From NCBI GenBank assembly GCA_903827375.1, contig CAIKHZ010000261.1, positions 1 to 56,940 on the forward strand: 56,940 bases of DNA, read 5' to 3'. Each line of letters starts with the position of its first letter. Positions within the stretch are counted from its first letter, which is position 1. Below the pieces are notes generated by a model that did no database searches, had not been told where the DNA came from, and saw only the letters and a program-made list of their open reading frames with translations. Shown one piece after another: positions 17,629-38,742 of the stretch. The position numbers and the translations under genes were made by a program. This stretch comes from Akkermansiaceae bacterium (GTDB taxonomy: Bacteria > Verrucomicrobiota > Verrucomicrobiia > Verrucomicrobiales > Akkermansiaceae).

Positions 17629-20600
17629 TCAGCGCAATAACACCCGGCGGGCGGCGGCGTGGCCAAAGCGAAGGTTGATGTCCAGTAGGTCGGAATAATT
17701 GGCGGCAGGAATTAGCGCTGGCTGGGTGTCCTGGTCCAAGGTGTAGGTGAAGCGCGTGGTGCCATCGATTTGTTGGGCACCGGCCGTGAATTTGATGCTG
17801 CCGAACTTGGCGGGGCCGTCCCAGTTGAGAGATTCCGGTTGGATGACGGGTTTGAGGCCGGAGGGCGCGCTGACCTGCCAAACGATGTGCGAGCGGTTGT
17901 CCTCCGCCACCAAAAGGGCTCGCTGACGGGTGTTGCTGTCGGTGGCAACCCATTGTTGGGGCATGCCCGGTAGATCAAAATAGAGGCCAGAGGCAATTTT
18001 CGAAGCGTAATGATTCGCTTTGACCGTGTATTTGAGCGTGCCAGGATAGGAGAAGTCGGTGATTAGATCCCCCTGTGCACTGGCGTTTTGGGAGATGGCG
18101 CTGACCAAACCTTGGAAATCGCGTTTGCGTTCCTCCGGCGTCATTTCGTGGTATTTCGCGGAGAATTCGAGGTGGGCCGTGCCATGCAGGCGATTGGTTA
18201 GAGTGATGACCGCTGAGCCTTCGGAGTCAAACTCCAGGGCCACTTGGACGTCATGGCCGTCCTTCATCGCGGCGGGCGCGGACCAGGTGAACGCCTTGCC
18301 ATCCAGAGTGTAGCCGGGTTGCTGGTCCAGTCCGGTGACCCCAAGCGGCGCGTATTGGCTCAAGGCGTCGAGAGGCAGCCATTCGCCGGTGAGCGGGTGT
18401 TTGACGCGACAGACCAGGCTGTCAAAATATCCGTTTTCCGGGATCCTTAGGCCGCGCTGCTGCAAGGCTGGTTCCCGAGTGGCTGTGGTGGCGAGGTCTA
18501 ACTCGCAATCAAGACCCACGGCCTTGAGCATGACGTGAAGGAGCACGGCGCGATCGGCACTGTGGCCGTAGCCGTCCTTGAGGGTGACATCGGCCGGTGA
18601 AAATGCCACAGCGAGCGGAAAGTTCGAAAAGCCGGGGGCCGTTGCGCGGATCTGTCTGGCAACAAAATCACGGATGGCGGTAAGCTTGGCCAGTGGCTCG
18701 CTGTGCCCGTTCGCCAGTTCCTTGGCCTTGGCGATGCTAGCCGGTTGGTTTTCTAACAGTGGCTTCAGTCGCGAGCCGATGGACGTGGCGTAGTCGCTCC
18801 AGTTGCCGGTGCTCATCGCGAAGTTTGGAGCGTCCACCCAGTCGGGCGGGGTGAGGTTTTCGGCGGCCTGCGGTTTGATATCCTTCCAGTGAAATGAAAA
18901 TTTGCGGCGCTTGTCGTCAACAACCTCTGTGAAGTGGCCGTCCTTGGGAAAGTCTATCACCAAGTGTGGATCGAGTTGGGCGGGCATGTCATAGGAAATT
19001 TCTGTGTCCTTGATCGCATCCCGGCTGGCGAAGGCGTAGGCGGCGTGGAACATCGGTTGGTCCTTGGCGGTGGTCTTGATGGCATAGGCGATGGTGGAGC
19101 CGACCTCGACCCCTGGCAGCGAGACCACCAGGGTTTTTGCCCCTGGATAGCGTGGCGCGCTGGCCACCCAGTCGGCATCTAGCAGGTTCATTTCCTGCGG
19201 CTGGATCTTGCGCACCGTGCCATCGTTCTGGGTCACTTGGGCGTATTCAATCGTCACGCTTTCCCACACGGGATTGAAGTTGAATTTTAGTTCGCTGTTG
19301 GATTTTTTGCCGCCGTAGGTCAGGATTTTTTTAATAACTTCCTGGCGGGAGGACCAGGTGGAAGAATTCTCGACGAGCAGATCACAGTGTGAGCTGAGGA
19401 TTTCCACGTCGGCGGTGACGGGTGGGGGAGTCGGGGGCGTGGCTGCGGCACGTCGCGGCTCAGGGGCCGGGCGGTGGTGGGAAAACAAAGGTTGCTGGCG
19501 GACGTTGGCTTGGAGTTTAGCCACGGCCTGTTTGAGGCTGAGATACTCGGCGGGTTTCACCGTGGGAGACTTGAGACGGATGTCAATGGCGGCTTTCAGC
19601 AGGCCGGCCTCTGCGCTGACAGTCTGGGTAAGGCTGAAATCCGGATGCTCGGTGTTCTCATATTGGGGCAGTGAAATGGGCTGGGCCAGAGTGGGGGGCA
19701 GAGTGATAGTTAGATCCTCCCGAGTGCCACACGTTAGATCCAATTGCAGGGGAAAGCGTCGTTCTTCCAATTGCAGCGATTCACCGATGACTTTCATGAC
19801 TACGCCAAAGTCACAGCCGACGAAGGGTAATTCGAGTTGCGCCACATCATCGCCGCTCACCAGAATATTGGGGGCAGACCAGCCGATGGTGATGCGGAGG
19901 TTGCGCGTCGAGTCTTGCATGTCTTCCGGTTCCAATTTGAAATGAGTGATTGTGGCACCGGGTAGCATGGATTTGACAGAGCCCTCGAAGGAGCGGCGGA
20001 TCGCGTCGGGCTTCGCTTGGGCGAGGTTGCCGCGGCAGTTGACGTCATTGATGCCAGTTAGATCAACCACGGTGGTGCCGGTGGCGCTGCCGTTGTCGGC
20101 GAGTTTGACCTCGGTTTTCGCTAGGCACATATTATCTTCTACAGGGGAGACGGGAGAAGTCATGAGGGGTTCGCCCTCTGGGGTGGCCACCAGATAACTC
20201 CGATCGTAGAGGTACTGCGGCATGAGGTCCGCGGTGTTCTCGTTGGTGCTATCCATGAGCAGGTATTTGCCATCTTGGGTGCGGGCCGCAGTGATGGCAT
20301 GATTGAAGCTAGCCGAGGGAACCTCGGGATCGAGTTTGGCTCCCACCATGATGATGACGGGAAAGGCAGGGATGCCGGCCTCGCAGAGCATGGCGGCGAG
20401 CAGCGCTGCTTTGTCGCGGCATACGCCATAGCGGTTGTCAAAGGTGATATTGACATCATGGGGTTCGTAACCTGGGGCATCGGTCTCGGTCGTGATGCCC
20501 ATGTAGCGGATCTCCTGGCTCACAAACTTGAAGATAGCCGTGATCTTGTCCCGCTCCGTGGTTGCGGTGGCAGTTAGTTCCTTGATTTTGGCGCGAATTG

Positions 20601-21483
20601 TCGGGGTTGACTTTTGCAGGTGACCTTTACACAGGTTGTAGTACCAGCGGCTGACGTCCTTCCAATCCGCCACGGTGCTCACCAGCAGGCGCTGGCAGCA
20701 GGTGGACACCTCCGGCATGCCATTCTCTGGAAATACCTGTGGCACATTGCGGCCGGTCCAGATATAGCGGATATGATCCCCCTCGGTTTGTTCGCTGGCG
20801 GTGACGGTGCCGCGCACTTCACTGAGCAGCGCCTGGCTCTTGAGCGGATGATCCTTGGGTGCCAGATACTCATAAGTGACCTGTTTGATGGGCATGGTGG
20901 TCTCCAGTATCGACCAGTCCGAAAAACAACCCTGCATGCGCGGCTTGGATTCCCAGTGCTTGACGAAAAACCGGATTGTATCGCCGATTTCCACATTCGG
21001 AACCGCGGCAACCAGAGCCTTGTCGTTGGGATCGTAAATATTGGCCTCCATTTGAGTGCTATCCACCTGTTCCTTGCTAATCGACTTGGCATCGTGCCGC
21101 ACGACGCTGCCATCCTCCTTGATCACCTCCACCTCCAAAATCTCCAACCCTCCATAAAAAATATTGTACGTGAAATCTTTCACGCCAACCTTGCGCCCCG
21201 CTTCGGTCAGCACTTTCACATACTCGTCATCCAGCGTCACAAAACTGCCATCCGCCTGATACTCGCTTCGCACATGCTCGGCAACCAGCACCGTGTCGGC
21301 ATCAGGATATTCGTCTGCCGTGACTTTCCCGGCAGACGCCACCGCCTGATCGTGATTTAGCAGCGCTGCGGGCCTCGCTGCCGAAGACGCAGTGGCGGGC
21401 TCCGCCAGGCAGTGGTGGGCGGAAATGACCGCCATGGCGGCCACTGCGACAGTGGCGAGAAAGATCCTGGGACGTGAATTCAT
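17629..21483 (-). CDS. Exported double DUF3857/transglutaminase-like protein, second catalytic site degenerate
   Basis: A protein of about 1284 residues made of two DUF3857-transglutaminase units. The signal 'FLATVAVAAMAVISAHHCLA' directs export. Unit one has DUF3857 at about 55-250 and a transglutaminase-like core with Cys near residue 355 ('RYGVCRDKAALLAAML'), His near 395 ('FNHAITAA') and Asp near 410 ('LLMDSTNEN'), a complete Cys-His-Asp triad. Unit two starts near 700 and is laid out the same way, but has 'YGHSADRAVLLHVML' (Ser in place of Cys, near 975), and the His position reads 'YFDSLVCRV'. It therefore looks like a non-catalytic partner domain. Possible starts are 21483 and 21498. 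The function of such periplasmic proteins is unknown. Confidence 0.88.
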   Translation of the reverse strand: MNSRPRIFLATVAVAAMAVISAHHCLAEPATASSAARPAALLNHDQAVASAGKVTADEYPDADTVLVAEHVRSEYQADGSFVTLDDEYVKVLTEAGRKVGVKDFTYNIFYGGLEILEVEVIKEDGSVVRHDAKSISKEQVDSTQMEANIYDPNDKALVAAVPNVEIGDTIRFFVKHWESKPRMQGCFSDWSILETTMPIKQVTYEYLAPKDHPLKSQALLSEVRGTVTASEQTEGDHIRYIWTGRNVPQVFPENGMPEVSTCCQRLLVSTVADWKDVSRWYYNLCKGHLQKSTPTIRAKIKELTATATTERDKITAIFKFVSQEIRYMGITTETDAPGYEPHDVNITFDNRYGVCRDKAALLAAMLCEAGIPAFPVIIMVGAKLDPEVPSASFNHAITAARTQDGKYLLMDSTNENTADLMPQYLYDRSYLVATPEGEPLMTSPVSPVEDNMCLAKTEVKLADNGSATGTTVVDLTGINDVNCRGNLAQAKPDAIRRSFEGSVKSMLPGATITHFKLEPEDMQDSTRNLRITIGWSAPNILVSGDDVAQLELPFVGCDFGVVMKVIGESLQLEERRFPLQLDLTCGTREDLTITLPPTLAQPISLPQYENTEHPDFSLTQTVSAEAGLLKAAIDIRLKSPTVKPAEYLSLKQAVAKLQANVRQQPLFSHHRPAPEPRRAAATPPTPPPVTADVEILSSHCDLLVENSSTWSSRQEVIKKILTYGGKKSNSELKFNFNPVWESVTIEYAQVTQNDGTVRKIQPQEMNLLDADWVASAPRYPGAKTLVVSLPGVEVGSTIAYAIKTTAKDQPMFHAAYAFASRDAIKDTEISYDMPAQLDPHLVIDFPKDGHFTEVVDDKRRKFSFHWKDIKPQAAENLTPPDWVDAPNFAMSTGNWSDYATSIGSRLKPLLENQPASIAKAKELANGHSEPLAKLTAIRDFVARQIRATAPGFSNFPLAVAFSPADVTLKDGYGHSADRAVLLHVMLKAVGLDCELDLATTATREPALQQRGLRIPENGYFDSLVCRVKHPLTGEWLPLDALSQYAPLGVTGLDQQPGYTLDGKAFTWSAPAAMKDGHDVQVALEFDSEGSAVITLTNRLHGTAHLEFSAKYHEMTPEERKRDFQGLVSAISQNASAQGDLITDFSYPGTLKYTVKANHYASKIASGLYFDLPGMPQQWVATDSNTRQRALLVAEDNRSHIVWQVSAPSGLKPVIQPESLNWDGPAKFGSIKFTAGAQQIDGTTRFTYTLDQDTQPALIPAANYSDLLDINLRFGHAAARRVLLR

Positions 21484-21498
21484 TGGCTGGCGGCGCAT

Positions 21499-21833: not shown

Positions 21834-24011
21834 TCAAGGCGCGACAATGCGCACCCGATAAAAGCGCCGTGGGTGCAGGGTGATGGCTGCCGCATCCGTC
21901 GTGGTGGCAGTGGCACCGTTGCCCGTCACATCACTCCCGAGTTGGGCCCAAGAACCCGCATCAAGCGAATCACTGAACTCAACCCGGTAGGTGACACCGT
22001 TGGCCGTCGAAAAGCTGATTTGAAAGTCCTTGTTAGCACCGTTGGGAATCTCCGTGACTTGTGCGATAGCCAGCCGACTGGCAGGATTGTTAGGTGATGT
22101 GCCTAATAAATATTCCTGCAAATTGGTGAAGCCATCTCCATCGGCATCAGCGAAGGGGTCCACCCCGAGATGGCCAAAATTGGCTATCTCCCACCAGTCC
22201 GGCAAGCCATTGCCATCGCTATCGACGACCCTCGCCAAGTTGAGTCGTCCGCCGCTGGCCACCTTGCCGGTTAGGGCAGCCAGCGGGGTGACGCTGGTGA
22301 TGATGCGTGAAACTCGCTGGGCAGCGGATTCATTGGGGAAATTGCCTGCAGCGAAGGCCACGGCGGCGGTCACGTAGGGAGTGGCCATGGATGTGCCGTC
22401 TTCATAGGTATAGATGGCGGCCGGATCAGCCGCGTTAGACAGGGTGACGGTGGTAGGCAAAAGGGCCTCCAGACTTTGGCCATCGGTCTGGGAAATGCCG
22501 AGCGCAGGGATCCAATTACCGGCACTGGCCAAGGTGCCATTGAATGATCCGCTGGTATTGTTGTAAACGACAACGGCGGATGCGCCGGCCTTCATGGCAT
22601 TGGTCACTTTGGCGGCAAACGTGAGAGTGCCGCGCTGAATGAGGGCGATGTTGCCACTCACAGCGGCGGGGAATTCGCTGGGATTGCCCAACCCGCAATG
22701 ATAGAGCTTGCTGGTGATGCCCGCTGCATATCCGCAATAGGTCATCGGCACTGTGGCGTAACTGGTGCCCGCGTGGGTCAGCGCCGAGGTGGGCGTGGCT
22801 TGCCAAGTGGGAACCGTCGATAATATGTTTGTGCCGGGTGCAGCCAGATCGACTTTGCTGCCAAAGTTGGAAAACGAGGCGAGGTGATCGGTGGAGTCGC
22901 TGGCGGTGACTACTATCATGTTAGAGAGGCGGTAGTTAGCCGGATAGGTGGGAGTGAGGGAATTATCAACCCCCTCGTTACCGGCAGCGGTGCAGAAGAC
23001 GATGCCGACATCGGCGGCGGCTTGGATGGCGCTACTTTCGCTGGCGGAGTAGGAAGGGCCGCCGTATGAGGCATTGATGGCGACGATATTGACGCCTCGT
23101 TTTTTCATTTTCACCGCGTAGTCGAGGGCGGCGAGTTCCGCAGCTGTGTTGATAACTGAGCCATCAGAGGAAATTTTGAGAGCCATGATATGGGCATTGA
23201 AGTCGGTGCCCACGATGCCCACATGGTTGTTGGCAACCCCGGCGATAATTCCGGAAACATGGGAACCATGCAGGCCGGAATCTGATGGGTTGCCGACGTT
23301 GCCGGCAAAATCATACCCGTGGACATCGTCGATCTCGCCGTTGCCATCATTGTCGAGGCCGTCGCCGGCAATTTCACCGGGATTGGTCCACAGGTTGGCT
23401 GCCAGATCCGGATGGGACGGGTCTATACCGGTGTCGAGCACTGCCACGACCACCTCTGGCATGTTAGGTTTGGCCAAGCCCCAAGCGTCAAGAAAGTGAA
23501 TATCAGCCCCGCTGGTGCCAGCGACACCATTGACGGATTGGCCGGTATTTTGAAGCGCCCAAAGTTTGGTAAAACTCGGATCATTGGGAACCGGCATGCT
23601 GCTGACGTGGCGCAGGTAGTTTGGTTCCGCGAGATCCACTTCGGGGTCGAGCTGAAGTTCGGCGATGAGTTCAGCGGTGGATTGGGTGGCGGAGCGGACG
23701 TGACAGTGCTCGCGCTGAGGCGAAATGGCCGCAAATTTCCGAACTGCGGTGAGGTGGTGGCGCACAGTGGCCGCCGCAGCGGCATCTGCGTTGGTGGCAG
23801 GTTTAAAGATGACCAGCGCTTCCCCTTCGACGAAATTGGCTTGTGGGGTGGACGCCGAGGCATGACCCAGCAGCAAGCCGAGGGCCAGGATCCAGCAGGC
23901 GCGGGAAAGGAGCCGCGCTGCTGCCTGCCCGACGTGGCGATGGTGGGTTTTGAAGGGGGTAGCGCAGTTCACAGGGCGGCGCAAATTTGGGGCGAATCCG
24001 GCATCGGGCAA
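21834..24011 (-). CDS. Secreted S8 (subtilisin) peptidase with PA insert and calcium-binding tail
   Basis: A serine protease of about 720 residues. A signal anchor ('ILALGLLLGHASA') and an N-terminal prodomain ('LVIFKPATNADAAA', 'DLAEPNYL') precede the catalytic domain. The triad is complete: Asp in 'VVAVLDTGIDPSHPDL', His in 'GLHGSHVSGIIAG' and Ser in 'DGTSMATPYVTAAVAF'. A PA domain ('GNIALIQRGTLTFAAKV', 'AGASAVVVYNN') is inserted between His and Ser, as in lactocepin-type subtilases. The tail has an Asp-rich thrombospondin-3-like calcium site ('DSDGNGLPDWWEIANFG', 'DADGDGFTNLQEYLLGTSP') and a small beta domain. The start could be TTG 24011 or GTG 23972; the latter gives a cleaner signal peptide. 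Confidence 0.93.
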   Translation of the reverse strand: MPDAGFAPNLRRPVNCATPFKTHHRHVGQAAARLLSRACWILALGLLLGHASASTPQANFVEGEALVIFKPATNADAAAAATVRHHLTAVRKFAAISPQREHCHVRSATQSTAELIAELQLDPEVDLAEPNYLRHVSSMPVPNDPSFTKLWALQNTGQSVNGVAGTSGADIHFLDAWGLAKPNMPEVVVAVLDTGIDPSHPDLAANLWTNPGEIAGDGLDNDGNGEIDDVHGYDFAGNVGNPSDSGLHGSHVSGIIAGVANNHVGIVGTDFNAHIMALKISSDGSVINTAAELAALDYAVKMKKRGVNIVAINASYGGPSYSASESSAIQAAADVGIVFCTAAGNEGVDNSLTPTYPANYRLSNMIVVTASDSTDHLASFSNFGSKVDLAAPGTNILSTVPTWQATPTSALTHAGTSYATVPMTYCGYAAGITSKLYHCGLGNPSEFPAAVSGNIALIQRGTLTFAAKVTNAMKAGASAVVVYNNTSGSFNGTLASAGNWIPALGISQTDGQSLEALLPTTVTLSNAADPAAIYTYEDGTSMATPYVTAAVAFAAGNFPNESAAQRVSRIITSVTPLAALTGKVASGGRLNLARVVDSDGNGLPDWWEIANFGHLGVDPFADADGDGFTNLQEYLLGTSPNNPASRLAIAQVTEIPNGANKDFQISFSTANGVTYRVEFSDSLDAGSWAQLGSDVTGNGATATTTDAAAITLHPRRFYRVRIVAP

Positions 24012-28237: not shown

Positions 28238-29497
28238 ATGCAAAACTCGAATGTCATCCGTGGATTGTTGGCCGTGCTTGGCATGGCCGTTTCGATGGCC
28301 CAAGCGGCGGAAGTACGCACTTGGATGTCGCGTAAAGGCGGCACGCTGGAAGCGGAATTGGGATCGCTCACCGACGATCAGGTGACGCTTGTGACCAAGG
28401 ATGGCAAGGAGCAAAAATACAAGGTGGAGGACCTGAGTTTGGCCGACCGCCAATATCTCGTCGAATTCGGTGGTGCGGAGGCATCTATCATCACGAGCGG
28501 CGCGCCGGGCCTGCCGGAGAAGGATGTTCACATCGATACCGCCACGCTCAAGAAACTTCCCACCAAATTTCATCTGGGAGAAACCAGCGATCAATTGGTG
28601 TTCGACTTGGTCCAAAGCACCCATTTCTTGGTGGCTAGCGCCGGCAAAGTCCGCGGCCAAGACACGGCCGATACCGCTGAGCGCTTGTGGCACGGCATGG
28701 CCTTCCAGCACATGAATTTCCGCAAGGACTGGGGCGATAAACGCATGCTCATCCTGTTGGTAGATGAACGCAAAATTTACAAATCGCTAGGCGATTGGTA
28801 CGTGGCATTCCTCATCAAGGAAGGCGACCCTGATGGGGCGCAGCGGGCCAAGACGGTGTGGCAGAAGGCCGGATCCAACCAGCTTCGAGTGCCCGAAGAC
28901 ACCGCCAAGGAGTACAACCTGCATCCCGGTGCCATCCTGTTTAATATCACCGAAGCGGCCAGCTACGCCAAACCACTCGGCCCCTTCCCCACCCATTGCA
29001 TATCCAGTGTGCTGCTCAGCAAACAAATGAGCGGTGTCAGCTCGTTCGGCGCAGAAGGCTATTTCGCCATCCTCACCGGCCATTCCTATTTCAAGGAAAT
29101 CAGCCTCGCCAAAAAGACGGAAACCCATTTGCTAGATGTGTCCGGCACTGGCAATGACGAGATCAGCTCCAAGGCCGGCTTCAAGGACGGCACATCCTGG
29201 GCCAAAACCCTCCGCCCCCTCGTCCGCAAGGGCAAGGTCAGTGTGAAGCTGGAACCCATGCTCAAATGGACCGGCGCGGAACTCAATCCCGAACGCCTTG
29301 TCCTCATTTACTCCTTCGCCTATTACATGGAAAGCGATTCGAAGCGCTTGTGCGCTTTCGCCAAGATGATCCGCCGCATCGAGTCATCTAACCAAATTCC
29401 GCCGGCTGATGAAATCGCCAAAATCTTCGGTTTTGAAACGGTTGCCGCATTTGAGGCGGACTGGAAGAAATTCATCACCGACGGCGAATTCAAATAA
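28238..29497 (+). CDS. SHD1-domain exported protein with a degenerate peptidase MA-like core
   Basis: A 419-residue protein with signal 'GLLAVLGMAVSMAQAAE'. Residues 25-75 form an SHD1-like SH3 barrel ('VRTWMSRKGGTLEAELGSL', 'YKVEDLSLADRQYLVEF'). The rest is laid out like the DUF1570/peptidase MA group: 'STHFLVASAGKV', 'DKRMLILLVDERKIYKSLG' and, at the C-terminus, 'LIYSFAYYMESDSK' and 'IFGFETVAAFEADWKKFI'. Where active members have HExxH this one has 'THCISSVLLSKQ', followed by 'EGYFAILTGHSYF'. It is therefore probably not a working zinc protease. It lies directly upstream of the SHD1 aspartic protease gene, 9 bp away, in one operon. The assignment of the core is inference. Confidence 0.72.
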   Translation: MQNSNVIRGLLAVLGMAVSMAQAAEVRTWMSRKGGTLEAELGSLTDDQVTLVTKDGKEQKYKVEDLSLADRQYLVEFGGAEASIITSGAPGLPEKDVHIDTATLKKLPTKFHLGETSDQLVFDLVQSTHFLVASAGKVRGQDTADTAERLWHGMAFQHMNFRKDWGDKRMLILLVDERKIYKSLGDWYVAFLIKEGDPDGAQRAKTVWQKAGSNQLRVPEDTAKEYNLHPGAILFNITEAASYAKPLGPFPTHCISSVLLSKQMSGVSSFGAEGYFAILTGHSYFKEISLAKKTETHLLDVSGTGNDEISSKAGFKDGTSWAKTLRPLVRKGKVSVKLEPMLKWTGAELNPERLVLIYSFAYYMESDSKRLCAFAKMIRRIESSNQIPPADEIAKIFGFETVAAFEADWKKFITDGEFK

Positions 29498-29506
29498 GTG
29501 CAATCC

Positions 29507-30877
29507 ATGATCCTGAAATTTTCTCGTGTTCTGGCGCTGGCCGCCCTATTCGTTAGTACAACTTCCGCCCAAACGGTGCCTGACAAGGATTACCGGGACT
29601 TTAAGGGCAGCAACGGCAAAGTGATTCAAGCTGTGTTGCTTGATAAAACCGACACCGATGCGGTGTTGCTGCTGCGCGACGGCAAAAGGACCACCATTCC
29701 CCTTGAGCGCCTCAGCACGGAGGATCAGGAGTATGTGAAAGACTGGTCCAAGGACAAGGCGGTGTTCGTGCAAAAATGCCGCGGTCTGGCCATCCGACAG
29801 TTGCTGGAACTGCGTGGCTATGAGTCCTTCGAGTTTCGTTTGCAAAACAACTCGATTTTCATCGACGGCAAACTCAACGGCAAACCGGCGCGTTTCCTGA
29901 TTGATACCGGAGCGGGAACCAGCCTGCTGCACGCGCCGTTTGCCACTTCGGTGGGTCTGGCGGTCGGGCCGATGGACGAGAAAATCTTCGGGGTTTCCGG
30001 TGAGGCACCTGCAGGCTGGACTTCGGTGCCAACCATTCAACTCGGCGAAGCCGTGTTCAAGGACCGGCGGATCCTGGCCACCGACCTGCTAAAGGATAAA
30101 CCGCCGGGCACCAAGTCGCGCGAAGATGTCATTTTGGGTGCCGAGTTTATGAACAAATTGGATGCAGTCATTTCCTATCAGGATCGGCGGATCTTCCTGC
30201 GGCCCGACCGCTCGGACGAAAGTGACGTCAAGGCTGGCAAGGGGGATGAAGGGTTGGCATTCCGCCTGTTCAAGACCAAGGAAGGCAAGACACTGCGCGG
30301 CAAGGTCGTCTCCAAAACTGCAACGTCCGCCACCATTGAATTGGTCGATGGTAAAAAAAGCCAAGTCTTCATCGATAGTTTCGTCAAGGAAGATGCGGAG
30401 TACGTGAAGGCTTGGAGCGAAGCGGGTGCCTTCTTCCTCCAGTATTGCCAGAGTCTAACGATCCATGAACTGCTCACCCTGCGCAAGTACCAGTCGTTTC
30501 AGTTCGAGCGCCGAGACAACCATATCTTCGTCGAGGGCTTCCTCAATGACAACAAGGTCACCTACATGATCGATACCGGTGCCGATAGCAGCCTGCTCCA
30601 TATCAGCGCCGCCAAAAAGTACGGCTGCGAAGTCGGCCCCTTGAACCAGGAAGTCTGGGGCATCGGCGGAAAACAGGCCGCAGGCGTCACCAATATCGGC
30701 AAAATTAAAATGGGTACCGCCGTTCTAACCAACCGAAAGGTGCTCGCCACCGACATGGTCCGCCGAGGCCAACCGGACAACCTCGGTTACGTCGGTCTCT
30801 TCGGAGCGGATTTCATGCGCGAACTCGACACGGTGATCACTTACACCGAAAATCGCATCTTCCTCATCCAACGCTGA
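29507..30877 (+). CDS. Tandem SHD1-retropepsin: exported protein with two aspartic protease domains
   Basis: A 456-residue exported protein (signal 'FSRVLALAALFVSTTSAQ') built from two similar halves. Each half has an SHD1-like barrel ('VIQAVLLDKTDTDAVLLLRD' and 'LRGKVVSKTATSATIELVDG'), a helical linker ('LAIRQLLELRGYESFEFRL' and 'LTIHELLTLRKYQSFQFER') and a retropepsin-like fold. Both catalytic motifs are intact: 'FLIDTGAGTSLLH' near residue 133 and 'YMIDTGADSSLLH' near 356. Retropepsins are normally homodimers with one DTG per chain, so this internal duplication could form a single-chain active site. I prefer the ATG at 29507 over the GTG at 29498, which directly follows the upstream stop. 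It is probably cotranscribed with the preceding SHD1 gene. Confidence 0.88.
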   Translation: MILKFSRVLALAALFVSTTSAQTVPDKDYRDFKGSNGKVIQAVLLDKTDTDAVLLLRDGKRTTIPLERLSTEDQEYVKDWSKDKAVFVQKCRGLAIRQLLELRGYESFEFRLQNNSIFIDGKLNGKPARFLIDTGAGTSLLHAPFATSVGLAVGPMDEKIFGVSGEAPAGWTSVPTIQLGEAVFKDRRILATDLLKDKPPGTKSREDVILGAEFMNKLDAVISYQDRRIFLRPDRSDESDVKAGKGDEGLAFRLFKTKEGKTLRGKVVSKTATSATIELVDGKKSQVFIDSFVKEDAEYVKAWSEAGAFFLQYCQSLTIHELLTLRKYQSFQFERRDNHIFVEGFLNDNKVTYMIDTGADSSLLHISAAKKYGCEVGPLNQEVWGIGGKQAAGVTNIGKIKMGTAVLTNRKVLATDMVRRGQPDNLGYVGLFGADFMRELDTVITYTENRIFLIQR

Positions 30878-34359: not shown

Positions 34360-37300
34360 ATGAGAACCATCTGTCTTCGAATTGCCACCCTGCTCCTCGC
34401 CTGTGTCGCCACCCTGTCGGCCGACGAGAAGAAACATATTGTGCTGATTGCCGGGCGGCCGAGCCATGGGCCCGGCGAGCATGAGCACAATGCCGGGGTG
34501 TTGTTGCTGGCGAAATGTTTGCGGGAGAACGCAGCGCAGTTGGCGGAGGTGAAGGTGCATCTGAACGCCGAGTGGCCAGCTGAAGCCGAACTGCAACAAG
34601 CCGACACAATTTTGATATATGCCGACGGGGCGGGCGGGCACCCGGCCTTGCAGGACAATCATTTGCAACAATTGTCCAAGCAAATGGCGCGGGGTTGTGG
34701 CTTCGTCTGCCTGCACTTTGCGGTGGAAGTGCCTGTGAAACCGGGTGGCGCTGAGTTCAAGAACTGGCTCGGGGGATATTTCGAAACCTTCTGGTCAGTC
34801 AATCCGGTGTGGGATGCCAGCTTCAAAGACCTCCCCAAACACCCGGTTTGCCAAGGGGTCAAACCGTTTGGCACTCACGACGAATGGTATTTTCACATGC
34901 GCTTTCAAGATGGGATGCAGGGCGTGACCCCGATTCTCAGTGCCTTGCCACCGCCCCAAACCGTGGGCAACTCAGACAGCGACCGCGGCGGTAACCCCGC
35001 TGTGCGCCTCGCCCTCAAAAACCAACAGCCTCAGCCGACCGCCTGGGCCACCGAGCGCGCCGACGGCGGCCGCGGCTTTGGCTTCACAGGTGGCCATTAC
35101 CACCAGGGATGGGCCAATGACGAACAACGCAAACTGGTGCTCAATGCCATCCTCTGGAGTGCCAAAGGGACGGTGCCGGCCAATGGCATCGACTCCAAAA
35201 TCAGCGCCGAAGATATGTTGGCTAATCTCGATGATAAGGGGCAGGCTTCGGCCAAAAAACCAGCCCCACCGGCCAATCCCAACCTGAAACCCGTCTATCA
35301 ATCGAAACTGGTTCACACCGAAGTTGTCGATATCAAAGCCAATCTAAAAGGTGCCAAACAGCTCTATCTGGTAGTGACCGACGGTGGCGACGGATTCGCT
35401 GCGGACTGGGCGGAGTGGATGGAACCCGTGCTGGTCAAGGCAGATGGCAGCAAAATCAAACTCACCGAGCTCAAACCCAAAACCGCGCAAGTCGGCTGGG
35501 GCCAACTCGGCGTCAACACACGTTGTGACGGACAGGGGCCAATGCGTGTGAAAGGCCGCAACGTGCCCTTCGGCCTGGCGGCACATGCTCCATCACTGCT
35601 CGCGTATGATCTCCCGGCCAATGTCGTGGCGTTCGAGGCCCAAGGCGGCATTGACGAAGGCGGCACCAACCAGAACGGTGCCACCGTCACCTTCCAAGTG
35701 TGGACGGAAAATCCCGGCAGCGCGGCCCCCGCCGCAGCGCCGCCGCCACCAGCCCCACCGGGCGTCGGGTATGGTGTCGATGACGCGCTCAAGAACATGG
35801 CCACGTTCCATACTCCCCCAGGGCTCGAGGCCTCTCTGTTTGCCGCAGAACCGATGATCCAGAACCCAACAAATATCGATATCGACCACCGCGGCCGGGT
35901 GTGGGCCACCGAATGTGTGAACTACCGCGGATATATGAACCTGCGCGATGAGGGCGACCGCGTCGTCATTCTCGAATCCACTCGCGGCGACGGCATCGCC
36001 GACCGTGAGAAAACGTTTTTCCAAAGCAAGGAACTAACCAATCCACTTGGCCTGTGCGTGCTCCCGCAGGCCAAGGGCACCAAGGTCATCGTCAGCGCCG
36101 CCCCCAATGTCTGGCTGCTAACAGACAAAAATGGCGACGATGTCGCCGACGAGGCCGTGGTCATTTTTAAAATTGGCGGGGTGTGGAATTACGACCATCA
36201 AATCCATGCCTTCATGCTCGGGCCTGACGGTAAATTTTATTTCAACGCGGGCAATTCCATCACTGAGTTGATGTGGCCGGATGGTTCGATCGTCAAGGAC
36301 ATGGATGGTCATGAGGTCACCAATCAGGGCAAACCCTATCGGCAAGGCATGGTGTTTCGCTGCGACATCGACCTGAACACCGGCAAGGCCAGCCACGTCG
36401 AAGTGCTAGGCCATAACTTCCGCAACAACTACAAAGTGGCGGTGGACTCATTCGGTACCCTTTGGCAGAGCGATAATGACGACGATGGCAACCAGGCCGT
36501 GCGCATCAACTATGTGATGGAATACGGAAATTTTGGTTACACCGACGAGTTGACCGGTGCAGGCTGGCAGAGTGCGCGCAGCAACATTGAGGCGGAGATT
36601 CCGCGGCGCCACTGGCATTTGAACGATCCTGGCGTCGTCCCCAATCTGCTCCACACCGGTGCCGGAGCCCCCACCGGCATCGTCGTCAATGAGGGCTCAC
36701 TGCTCGGCGAATCCTTCACTAACCAAATCATCCACTGCGATGCCGGGCCGCGCACGGTCCGCGCCTATCCGGTGACAAAAGACGGTGCTGGCTATCAGGC
36801 AACCATGGTTGATATCCTAACCGGAACAGACAACTGGTACCGAGCCAGCGACGCGGCCATCGGCTGCGATGGTTCGCTTTTCGTCGCAGACTGGTATGAT
36901 CCAGGCGTAGGCGGCCATGGCATGGGCGACAACGTAAAAGGCCACATCCGCGGCCGCATCTATCGGGTGGCACCGCCAGGGGCAAAACTCAACGCACCCA
37001 AGGTGGATGTGAGCAACCCCGCCGGTGCCGTCGCCGCACTTCAATCCCCTAACCGGGTGATTTGCGGGATGGCTTGGCAGGCGCTCCACGCCCAAGGCGA
37101 GGCAGCCGTCGGTGAACTCAGCAAACTCTGGCAAAGCCCACTGCCACGGATGAGAGCCCGTGCGCTCGGCGTGCTGGCACAAATTCCAGGCCATCAGATC
37201 AGTGCTCTCACGGCCGGGTTTCATGACGCCGATGCCGACGTGCGCACTTGGGCCCTGCGCCTAACATCCACGCTGTCTCGGAGCGGTTTGATCGATGCTG

Positions 37301-38742
37301 CAGCCCTCAAGGAGCCCATCGAAAAATTGCTTCACGACCCGAGTGCGGCGGTGCGTCGGCAGATCGCCATTTCCCTTCACGGGCAAAAGGATGTGGCGCA
37401 TTTCTGGAGCGCGCTTGCCCTGCAGCACGATGGCAAGGACCGCTGGTATCTTGAGGCCCTCGGCATCGGATCCATGGGCCATGAAGATGCGTGTTTCGAT
37501 GCTTGGCAAGCCGCCGTCGGTGAGCACTGGAACACTCCCGCCGGACGGGACATCTTGTGGCGTCTCCGCTCTGGCAAGACCGCAGCCTATCTGGCGAAAA
37601 TCCTCGAAGATCCGGCCGTCGCCAGCGGCGAAAAGGCGCGGTTTCTGCGGGCCTTCGACTTTCTGCCAACCTCGCCGTCAAAACTGTCCGCACTCATCGA
37701 ACTGGCGGGCAACGGCTCCAGTGCCGAAGTGATCCGGGAGGCACTGTTGCGCTTGAAAGGCAGCTCTGGCCCGGAGCTCGCCACCGTCATTCAAGCAGCT
37801 CTGACAAAATCTCGCGGCACATCACAGTTTGTGCAACTTGCCCGCGATTTCGGCGCAGCCGGCCAAGCTGCCGCACTGCTCGATACTGCTGTGGCCATCG
37901 CCAATGACCCCGCCGCCAACGACGCCATCCAGTTACTCTATCAAGACGCCGAGGCTGACAAGATCATCGATGCCGCACTCACCGGCCCCCATGCTGCGGG
38001 CGTCGTTGCAGTGCTCGGCAGCAGTGGCACCGCCCGAGGGCTGACACGCCTCGGGACGCTACTATCTAACACGCAAGCCTCGCTTGAGCTACGCCAGCAA
38101 GCGGTGCGTGCTTTCTCCCGCAGCCAAACAGGTGCCACGGCGCTTCTGAAGTTAGCCAAAGACGGGCATCTGCCTGCTGAGTTGGCAGCCGCTGCCGCCA
38201 GCGCGCTGCGCCTTGTGCAATATCCCACGCTCACCAGCGACATCGACGCGCTCTTTCCGGCCCCGGCGGCGCTCGGCGGAAAGACACTCCCGGCCATTCC
38301 TGAACTTGCCAAGATATCAGGCGATGTGGCGCAAGGTCGCGCTGTGTTCGAGCGTCCAGAAAGTTCATGCATCACCTGCCATCGCATCGGCAAGCTCGGG
38401 GTTGATGTCGCCCCTCCGCTAGACGCGATTGGTGCCAAACTCACCAAAGAACAACTCCTCGACTCCATCATCAACCCCAACGCCAGCCTCAGCATGGGCT
38501 TCGAAACCACCCAACTCGCCCTCAAGGACGGCAGCACCGGCTTTGGCATCGTTCGCAGCGAAACTGCCGACGAGTTGATTCTGGCACTGCCTGGTGGCAC
38601 GACCCAGAAATTCCGCAAGGCCGACGTCACCAAGCGCGAAAAGCTCACCACCTCGCTCATGCCCAATGGCCTCAGCCAAGTCCTGAGTCAGGCCGAATTG
38701 GTCAATTTGGTCGAGTATCTCTCATCCCTCAAAGCCAAGTAA
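34360..38742 (+). CDS. ThuA - NPCBM - PVC-type dehydrogenase - HEAT - CxxCH cytochrome fusion
   Basis: A 1460-residue exported protein (signal 'MRTICLRIATLLLACVATLS'). The domains in order are: ThuA at about 25-275 ('HIVLIAGRPSHGPGEHEHNA', 'GFGFTGGHYHQGW'); an NPCBM-like carbohydrate-binding domain at about 310-455 ('LYLVVTDGGDGFAADWAEW'); and a beta-propeller dehydrogenase-like domain at about 470-885 ('FHTPPGLEASLFAAEPMI', 'NIDIDHRGRVWATECVNYRG', 'DWYDPGVGGHGMGD'). HEAT-like repeats occupy about 890-1300, and a C-terminal haem-c domain has CITCH near 1337-1341 and 'VDVAPPLDAIGAKLT'. This PVC-specific architecture is thought to oxidise sugars at the cell surface and pass electrons to the haem. 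HiPIP or soluble cytochrome could be the acceptor. Confidence 0.93.
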   Translation: MRTICLRIATLLLACVATLSADEKKHIVLIAGRPSHGPGEHEHNAGVLLLAKCLRENAAQLAEVKVHLNAEWPAEAELQQADTILIYADGAGGHPALQDNHLQQLSKQMARGCGFVCLHFAVEVPVKPGGAEFKNWLGGYFETFWSVNPVWDASFKDLPKHPVCQGVKPFGTHDEWYFHMRFQDGMQGVTPILSALPPPQTVGNSDSDRGGNPAVRLALKNQQPQPTAWATERADGGRGFGFTGGHYHQGWANDEQRKLVLNAILWSAKGTVPANGIDSKISAEDMLANLDDKGQASAKKPAPPANPNLKPVYQSKLVHTEVVDIKANLKGAKQLYLVVTDGGDGFAADWAEWMEPVLVKADGSKIKLTELKPKTAQVGWGQLGVNTRCDGQGPMRVKGRNVPFGLAAHAPSLLAYDLPANVVAFEAQGGIDEGGTNQNGATVTFQVWTENPGSAAPAAAPPPPAPPGVGYGVDDALKNMATFHTPPGLEASLFAAEPMIQNPTNIDIDHRGRVWATECVNYRGYMNLRDEGDRVVILESTRGDGIADREKTFFQSKELTNPLGLCVLPQAKGTKVIVSAAPNVWLLTDKNGDDVADEAVVIFKIGGVWNYDHQIHAFMLGPDGKFYFNAGNSITELMWPDGSIVKDMDGHEVTNQGKPYRQGMVFRCDIDLNTGKASHVEVLGHNFRNNYKVAVDSFGTLWQSDNDDDGNQAVRINYVMEYGNFGYTDELTGAGWQSARSNIEAEIPRRHWHLNDPGVVPNLLHTGAGAPTGIVVNEGSLLGESFTNQIIHCDAGPRTVRAYPVTKDGAGYQATMVDILTGTDNWYRASDAAIGCDGSLFVADWYDPGVGGHGMGDNVKGHIRGRIYRVAPPGAKLNAPKVDVSNPAGAVAALQSPNRVICGMAWQALHAQGEAAVGELSKLWQSPLPRMRARALGVLAQIPGHQISALTAGFHDADADVRTWALRLTSTLSRSGLIDAAALKEPIEKLLHDPSAAVRRQIAISLHGQKDVAHFWSALALQHDGKDRWYLEALGIGSMGHEDACFDAWQAAVGEHWNTPAGRDILWRLRSGKTAAYLAKILEDPAVASGEKARFLRAFDFLPTSPSKLSALIELAGNGSSAEVIREALLRLKGSSGPELATVIQAALTKSRGTSQFVQLARDFGAAGQAAALLDTAVAIANDPAANDAIQLLYQDAEADKIIDAALTGPHAAGVVAVLGSSGTARGLTRLGTLLSNTQASLELRQQAVRAFSRSQTGATALLKLAKDGHLPAELAAAAASALRLVQYPTLTSDIDALFPAPAALGGKTLPAIPELAKISGDVAQGRAVFERPESSCITCHRIGKLGVDVAPPLDAIGAKLTKEQLLDSIINPNASLSMGFETTQLALKDGSTGFGIVRSETADELILALPGGTTQKFRKADVTKREKLTTSLMPNGLSQVLSQAELVNLVEYLSSLKAK

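Follow-up and report, generated by a model that had tools for sequence, protein, structure and literature searches.

The locus analysed here raises two questions: whether a single bacterial polypeptide built from two SHD1-linker-retropepsin units forms one aspartic protease, and whether the SHD1 protein encoded immediately upstream is its partner. The locus lies in the window, that is, the whole 56,940-nucleotide stretch of Akkermansiaceae DNA that was analysed. We refer to the tandem SHD1-retropepsin protein as TP and to the conserved partner gene and its product as UP. Their features are as follows:

28238..29497, plus strand: UP, conserved partner gene, 419 aa, with a signal peptide (by eye), SHD1 at about residues 20-76 and a C-terminal domain
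29507..30877, plus strand: TP, tandem SHD1-retropepsin protein, 456 aa (ORF, Pfam, self-alignment, family)
29507..29572, plus strand: Sec-type signal peptide of TP, residues 1 to about 22, read by eye from MILKFSRVLALAALFVSTTSAQ, ending in TTSAQ; pLDDT is low at residues 1-23
29585..29746, plus strand: SHD1 barrel 1 of TP, about residues 27-80; strands 30-34, 39-47, 51-56 and 61-65 (model), sub-threshold Pfam SHD1, profile match to the UP SHD1
29849..30205, plus strand: retropepsin lobe 1 of TP, about residues 115-233; PF13650 at 120-214, structural superposition
29903..29914, plus strand: catalytic motif of lobe 1, D133-T-G-A, invariant (54/54)
30260..30415, plus strand: SHD1 barrel 2 of TP, about residues 252-303, between the lobes; strands 253-257, 262-270, 274-279 and 284-288 (model), aligned to barrel 1
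30518..30874, plus strand: retropepsin lobe 2 of TP, about residues 338-456; second PF13650 stretch, PF00077 at 347-443, structural superposition
30572..30583, plus strand: catalytic motif of lobe 2, D356-T-G-A; D356, G358 and A359 invariant, position 357 T or S

TP consists of two homologous SHD1-linker-retropepsin units

The TP reading frame contains no internal stop and yields 456 aa from the ATG at 29507, the longest frame opening at a GTG at 29498. In a self-alignment, residues 27-235 align from end to end with residues 250-456 as two homologous units, with 83 of 203 positions identical (41%, E = 3e-59). Each unit opens with an SHD1 barrel and continues through a helical linker, which ends in LR(G/K)Y.SF, into a retropepsin lobe. 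The Pfam profile PF13650 (Asp_protease_2) matched two stretches of the protein (88.4 bits versus a cut-off of 24.3; E 5.2e-25), and the NCBIfam model TIGR02281 (clan_AA_DTGA) barely passed its own threshold (58.4 versus 57.95 bits), with both stretches contributing. Sequence and alignment further placed the hydrophobic-hydrophobic-Gly motifs of the lobes at ILG211 and LFG433. The pepsin family A1 profile (PF00026) was absent from the eight families listed for TP up to E = 10, a search in which HMMER filters drop most weak matches.

Several comparisons bear on the SHD1 assignment. PF03983 (SHD1) scored 18.2 bits on TP itself, under the Pfam cut-off of 23.7, and matched 25 of the 54 family members at E <= 0.01 (best 7e-7). 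Profile-profile comparison aligned the TP SHD1 region with that of UP over 62 columns (E = 2.9e-9), and the structure of the SLA1 SHD1 domain (2hbp) was not among the hits of a TP half profile up to E = 1. The predicted model places four short strands and a helix ahead of each linker and lobe, as for a small barrel. Together, these data bear out a preliminary description of this DNA in which TP was read as a duplicated SHD1-linker-retropepsin unit keeping DTG in both copies, at D133 and D356. The periplasmic location that it also suggested agrees with the Sec-type signal peptide, although the signal peptides of TP and UP are by-eye readings and not program calls.

Both catalytic motifs are conserved across the TP family

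We searched for this four-domain order elsewhere by running the family alignment against 84,980 species, each represented by a single genome. The scan, whose two short peptide seed patterns may miss remote relatives both in the phylum and beyond it, returned 64 loci. Full-length TP is encoded at 56 of them, each with D[TS]GA in both halves. Among 54 aligned proteins, D133, T134, G135, A136, D356, G358 and A359 are invariant, as are the glycines G211 and G433; lobe 1 reads DTGA in all 54, and lobe 2 in 53, the remaining one carrying DSGA. Record titles assign the loci to Verrucomicrobiota, with the exception of two contigs titled Rhodopirellula (L089 and L090, sp. NAT69); their halves match those of the Verrucomicrobiales locus L068 exactly or almost exactly, and their bin or label may be mistaken.

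Six-frame searches of two overlapping sets recovered TP, always with two units, from 10 of the 286 genomes in the class set and 6 of the 387 in the phylum set. A catalytically intact single SHD1-retropepsin unit, the candidate ancestor, was not found among matches at E <= 1e-12 in these 286 class and 387 phylum genomes, where the best 8-10 first-look candidates per genome were scored. Three genomes encode proteins of ~220-260 aa (L027, L150 and L152) that combine a single SHD1 with a single retropepsin-like lobe and have motifs of the DHRN/SHQN type in place of DTG.

Tandem retropepsins are common, and those of the TP family carry SHD1 between the lobes

The single-chain tandem retropepsin had been put forward in the preliminary description as a special arrangement, a claim that did not hold: the class has many such tandems that lack SHD1, and one tandem, 9iy9 from Bacteroides fragilis, is already in the PDB. 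Two PF13650 matches in one reading frame were evident, by manual count, in 16 ORFs from 14 of 57 class genomes, the window included, and at least two D[TS]G motifs are present in 34 of the 36 retrieved retropepsin entries that exceed 280 residues. SHD1-free tandem PF13650 proteins of Verrucomicrobiota (L103, L149, L172 and L175) have two D[TS]G lobes per chain, as TP does, but lack a TP-type SHD1 by model. The two catalytic Asp are about 128-160 residues apart in tandems outside the TP family, these four included, versus 219-241 within it, where the spacing is wider because SHD1 and the linker sit between the lobes. Of 41 entries (40 different sequences), the SHD1 model of the TP family scored two, each belonging to that family, so SHD1 between retropepsin lobes was seen only in the TP family among the entries compared. 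A further ORF of ~896 aa (L166, G361 contig 6) encodes four retropepsin domains with D[ST]G at 84, 232, 518 and 655, arranged as two tandem pairs, and yielded no SHD1 match.

The two lobes are predicted to share one active site

The structure of the whole TP chain was predicted as a monomer with AlphaFold2 from 54 sequences (pLDDT 85.7, pTM 0.77); a single-sequence model (pLDDT 40) was discarded. VIA-align superposed model residues 108-446 on the tethered HIV-1 protease dimer 1lv1 over 198/198 residues (3.1 Å, Z 14.9), residues 102-456 on renin (5kos_A) over 240 residues (3.6 Å, Z 15.0), and residues 101-454 on the Bacteroides fragilis protein 9iy9 over 256 residues (3.4 Å, Z 18.7), alignments that span TP residues 101-456 and barely probe the SHD1 parts. 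Foldseek itself gave modest global TM-scores, 0.43 with 9iy9 and about 0.3-0.4 with pepsins. We relied on VIA-align, and set the Foldseek alignments alone aside, because the latter were forced over nearly the full length of pepsins, at about 8-21 Å rmsd. As all residues of 1lv1 were aligned, the TP lobes appear to be in about the right mutual placement; as both fit one superposition, the model places them as in the dimer or in pepsin, and the two motifs should therefore meet. The prediction thus speaks for a single pepsin- or HIV-protease-like unit, in keeping with the likeness to pepsins drawn in the preliminary description, with one active site to which each lobe should contribute one Asp. 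The Ala that follows DTG in HIV protease and renin is linked to activity near neutral pH in a section of PMC2761423, and by analogy the DTGA of both TP lobes suggests that TP may likewise be active near neutral pH.

Duplication history of the halves

Duplication and fusion of a half-enzyme is the event proposed for the origin of pepsins. A tree of 88 halves from 44 proteins placed most N-halves in one group and their C-halves in another, and in the L073-L083 group (11 proteins) the N- and C-halves join each other with support 96/87. Forcing all N-halves together cost 8.0 log-likelihood units (AU test, p = 0.056). The distance from the SHD1 Trp to the linker Arg is 25 residues in 22/22 halves of this group and 23 residues in 86/86 halves of the other 43 proteins. 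Tree and spacing are compatible with two duplications that arose independently, or with gene conversion within a single lineage, and, at this AU value, one duplication alone may account for the whole family. It is conceivable, if rather doubtful, that duplication and fusion of the SHD1-retropepsin half took place on two occasions, one ancestral to the L073-L083 group and the other to the remaining members, with the same SHD1 partner kept each time; if true, these would be two natural repeats of the proposed pepsin-origin event.

UP is an SHD1 protein with a conserved C-terminal domain

Only 9 bases lie between the UP stop codon and the start of TP. PF03983 was detected in 21 of 28 aligned UP members at E <= 1 (best 1.6e-6), and the UP profile matched the SLA1 SHD1 structure 2hbp (E 5.8e-4). 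The C-terminal domain gave no convincing match in Pfam, NCBIfam or PDB sequences. The preliminary description had taken this neighbour for a degenerate peptidase, a reading that our comparisons did not establish: UP matched no Pfam peptidase family, and HExxH was absent from all 55 UP proteins inspected (window plus 54 loci, 3 partial). Comparison by hhalign with 13 SHD1-HExxHQ proteins yielded E 0.028 and a probability of 1.7%, although the conserved UP His falls on HELTHQ in that alignment; the profile comparison does not support UP as more than a putative degenerate metallopeptidase. Beyond its own family, UP matched the divergent L107/L120/L138 group (1.7e-34) and L127 (2.2e-11), neither of which matched the HExxHQ group. 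An intact, metallopeptidase-like HExxHQ motif occurs in SHD1 proteins of numerous g21 genomes and of others (L121-L126, L128-L131 and L134-L136), where a scan of three gave SHD1 as the only domain over a Pfam cut-off.

TP and UP are genetically linked

UP lies near TP at 54 of the 64 loci, in co-directional (31), convergent (13) or divergent (10) order. The gap between the two genes is within 300 bases at 47 of these 54 loci and 323-2205 bases at the remaining seven. Nine TP loci have no UP nearby: at seven of them a contig end falls within 1.4 kb of TP on at least one side, and at L060 and L083 UP is missing despite more than 5 kb of sequence on both sides. The L093 locus (G014 contig 141:30342-30533; also L028) retains only a 66-residue remnant of the TP C-terminus, and, as G014 has no UP match, this looks like a joint loss.

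Among 99 related genomes, that of the window included, 26 encode both proteins, 3 UP only, 1 the TP remnant only (G014) and 69 neither. The UP-only genomes are G051 and G068, which gave no TP match beyond SHD1, and G094, with a UP fragment. Among 286 class genomes, in which UP was counted at E < 1e-100 (weaker matches being SHD1-only or distant relatives), 10 encode both, none TP alone, 1 UP alone (G356) and 275 neither. UP is thus present in 26/27 and 10/10 of the TP genomes of the two sets, the one exception being the TP remnant. Fisher tests of this co-occurrence gave p < 1e-16, a value that overstates the evidence since the genomes are related; for that reason, the three gene orders are a better argument than the p-values. 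The pairing of TP with the neighbouring SHD1 protein, anticipated in the preliminary description, therefore stands on 54 of 64 loci, three gene orders and co-occurrence in both genome sets, and it is a stronger finding than the tandem lobes themselves.

The surroundings of the pair are less constant. Of the eight largest neighbour clusters, those found in 48, 35, 16 and, in one case, 9 loci proved on re-checking to be strand- or frame-shadow ORFs of TP or UP. True neighbours (sulfatase-like and several others, named by eye) are limited to 11 and 9 loci, so no conserved third gene was found beside TP and UP among clusters reaching at most 11 loci. Promoter and terminator scans returned counts near or below chance. 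Elsewhere in the window, positions 17629-21498 (minus strand) encode a 1289-aa protein with DUF3857 and a transglutaminase core, adjoining a subtilase with a PA domain at 21834-24011 (minus strand), and positions 34360-38742 (plus strand) encode a 1460-aa protein with ThuA, NPCBM, DUF7133 and HEAT repeats.

Proposed mode of action and alternatives

Beyond the observed domain architecture, conservation of both motifs and linkage to UP, we propose that TP is probably a secreted single-chain aspartic protease with one catalytic dyad that works with UP as its dedicated SHD1 partner. It would be a clan AA endopeptidase active in the periplasm or at the outer surface. Tandem duplication of the SHD1-linker-retropepsin unit would have given rise to two lobes folded against each other in one chain, and D133 and D356 would form the dyad under two flaps, as predicted by the model and like the tethered HIV protease dimer. 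The SHD1 barrels may serve as binding modules, one per lobe. UP, with an SHD1 of its own besides a conserved C-terminal domain, would act with TP, most probably in a complex or a common pathway, presenting the substrate, controlling TP or being cut by it; SHD1-mediated contacts are the mode of association that we favour. By analogy with the Pseudomonas rlo system, UP could be a regulator, a presenter or a target of TP.

That UP is mainly a substrate or proprotein of TP and not its helper is the alternative that fares best, albeit still improbable. Such a relation would also explain a pairing conserved in three gene orders and in co-occurrence, and it has a counterpart in the rlo system, where, in the part of the account on which we draw (PMC12239564), the defects that follow from loss of the proteases are relieved when the partner is lost as well, fully for low-osmolarity growth and partly for other traits; however, UP is found without TP in a few genomes. 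It is decidedly unlikely that each TP lobe pairs instead with a lobe of another chain, the active form being a dimer or larger with at least two separate sites. The lobes are unusually symmetric, a single alignment column being 90%-conserved in both halves with differing residues (L073-L083 group left out), so that either kind of pairing is plausible, and RloA, a bacterial retropepsin with one lobe per chain, forms homodimers according to the portion of PMC12239564 cited here; against this, the predicted TP monomer already displays the pepsin-like arrangement.

We give little credence to the linkage of TP and UP being inherited gene order without functional meaning: most TP loci belong to bacteria that are related to one another, and the co-directional arrangement may represent an old gene pair, but the pair is kept in three different orders and G070 has both genes, on separate contigs. 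Least credible of all is a TP that has lost catalysis and acts as a binding protein, since both Asp, the motif Gly and Ala, and G211 and G433 are invariant in 54 sequences, even though DTG was lost in single-unit SHD1 relatives in G020, G300 and G323 and non-catalytic members hence exist in the wider group.

With a catalytic TP paired with UP as the preferred reading, the family offers a naturally occurring single-chain retropepsin with two halves that have stayed about 40% alike. The transition from a homodimeric to a bilobed enzyme thereby becomes open to experiment, for instance by asking whether each half dimerises alone and whether the lobes are interchangeable. TP and UP also point to a two-gene secreted system in Verrucomicrobiota in which a protease and its SHD1 partner travel together, and this system offers a function to seek for the bacterial SHD1 barrel.

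Comparison with known systems

A literature search that covered few subscription journals found no description of an SHD1-retropepsin fusion or of the steady SHD1 partner UP, and no paper on 9iy9. Tandem retropepsins are already known; the SHD1-bearing version with a linked SHD1 partner is apparently undescribed. The closest fold match is 9iy9 (PDB release 2025-08-06), a Bacteroides fragilis putative endopeptidase or 'Exported protein' that, like TP, has two retropepsin lobes per chain. Sequence alignment places DTG in both of its lobes, the match in the second being weak (i-Evalue 4.8); it is 17% identical to TP over the aligned part, and its first ~150 residues lie outside the alignment.

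Enzymes of pepsin family A1 (renin, plasmepsin, shewasin) are also bilobed single chains, and renin and plasmepsins match the TP fold across both lobes. In pepsins, sequence similarity between the lobes is confined to the surroundings of the active-site motifs, as stated in one part of PMC2761423, whereas those of TP are 41% identical over the whole unit. SHD1-HExxH proteins resemble TP in placing SHD1 before a putative catalytic domain and after a signal-like N-terminus, with HExxHQ replacing the retropepsin, and are possible relatives of UP. Amuc_1434 of Akkermansia muciniphila, a protein of ~50 kDa that carries DTG and LLG motifs and has an activity sensitive to pepstatin according to an excerpt of PMC6982040, can be likened to TP by description only.

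The single-lobe enzymes RloA and RimB of Pseudomonas and APRc/ApRick of Rickettsia share the retropepsin fold of TP, ApRick also being a sequence match, but have one lobe per chain. The Pseudomonas RloA retropepsins are secreted and homodimeric, and share an operon and a pathway with the inactive transglutaminase RloB, as reported in the part of PMC12239564 used here. The partner of RloA is thus an inactive transglutaminase and that of TP an SHD1 protein; with this difference, the rlo system would be, by analogy, the closest functional precedent for the TP-UP pair.
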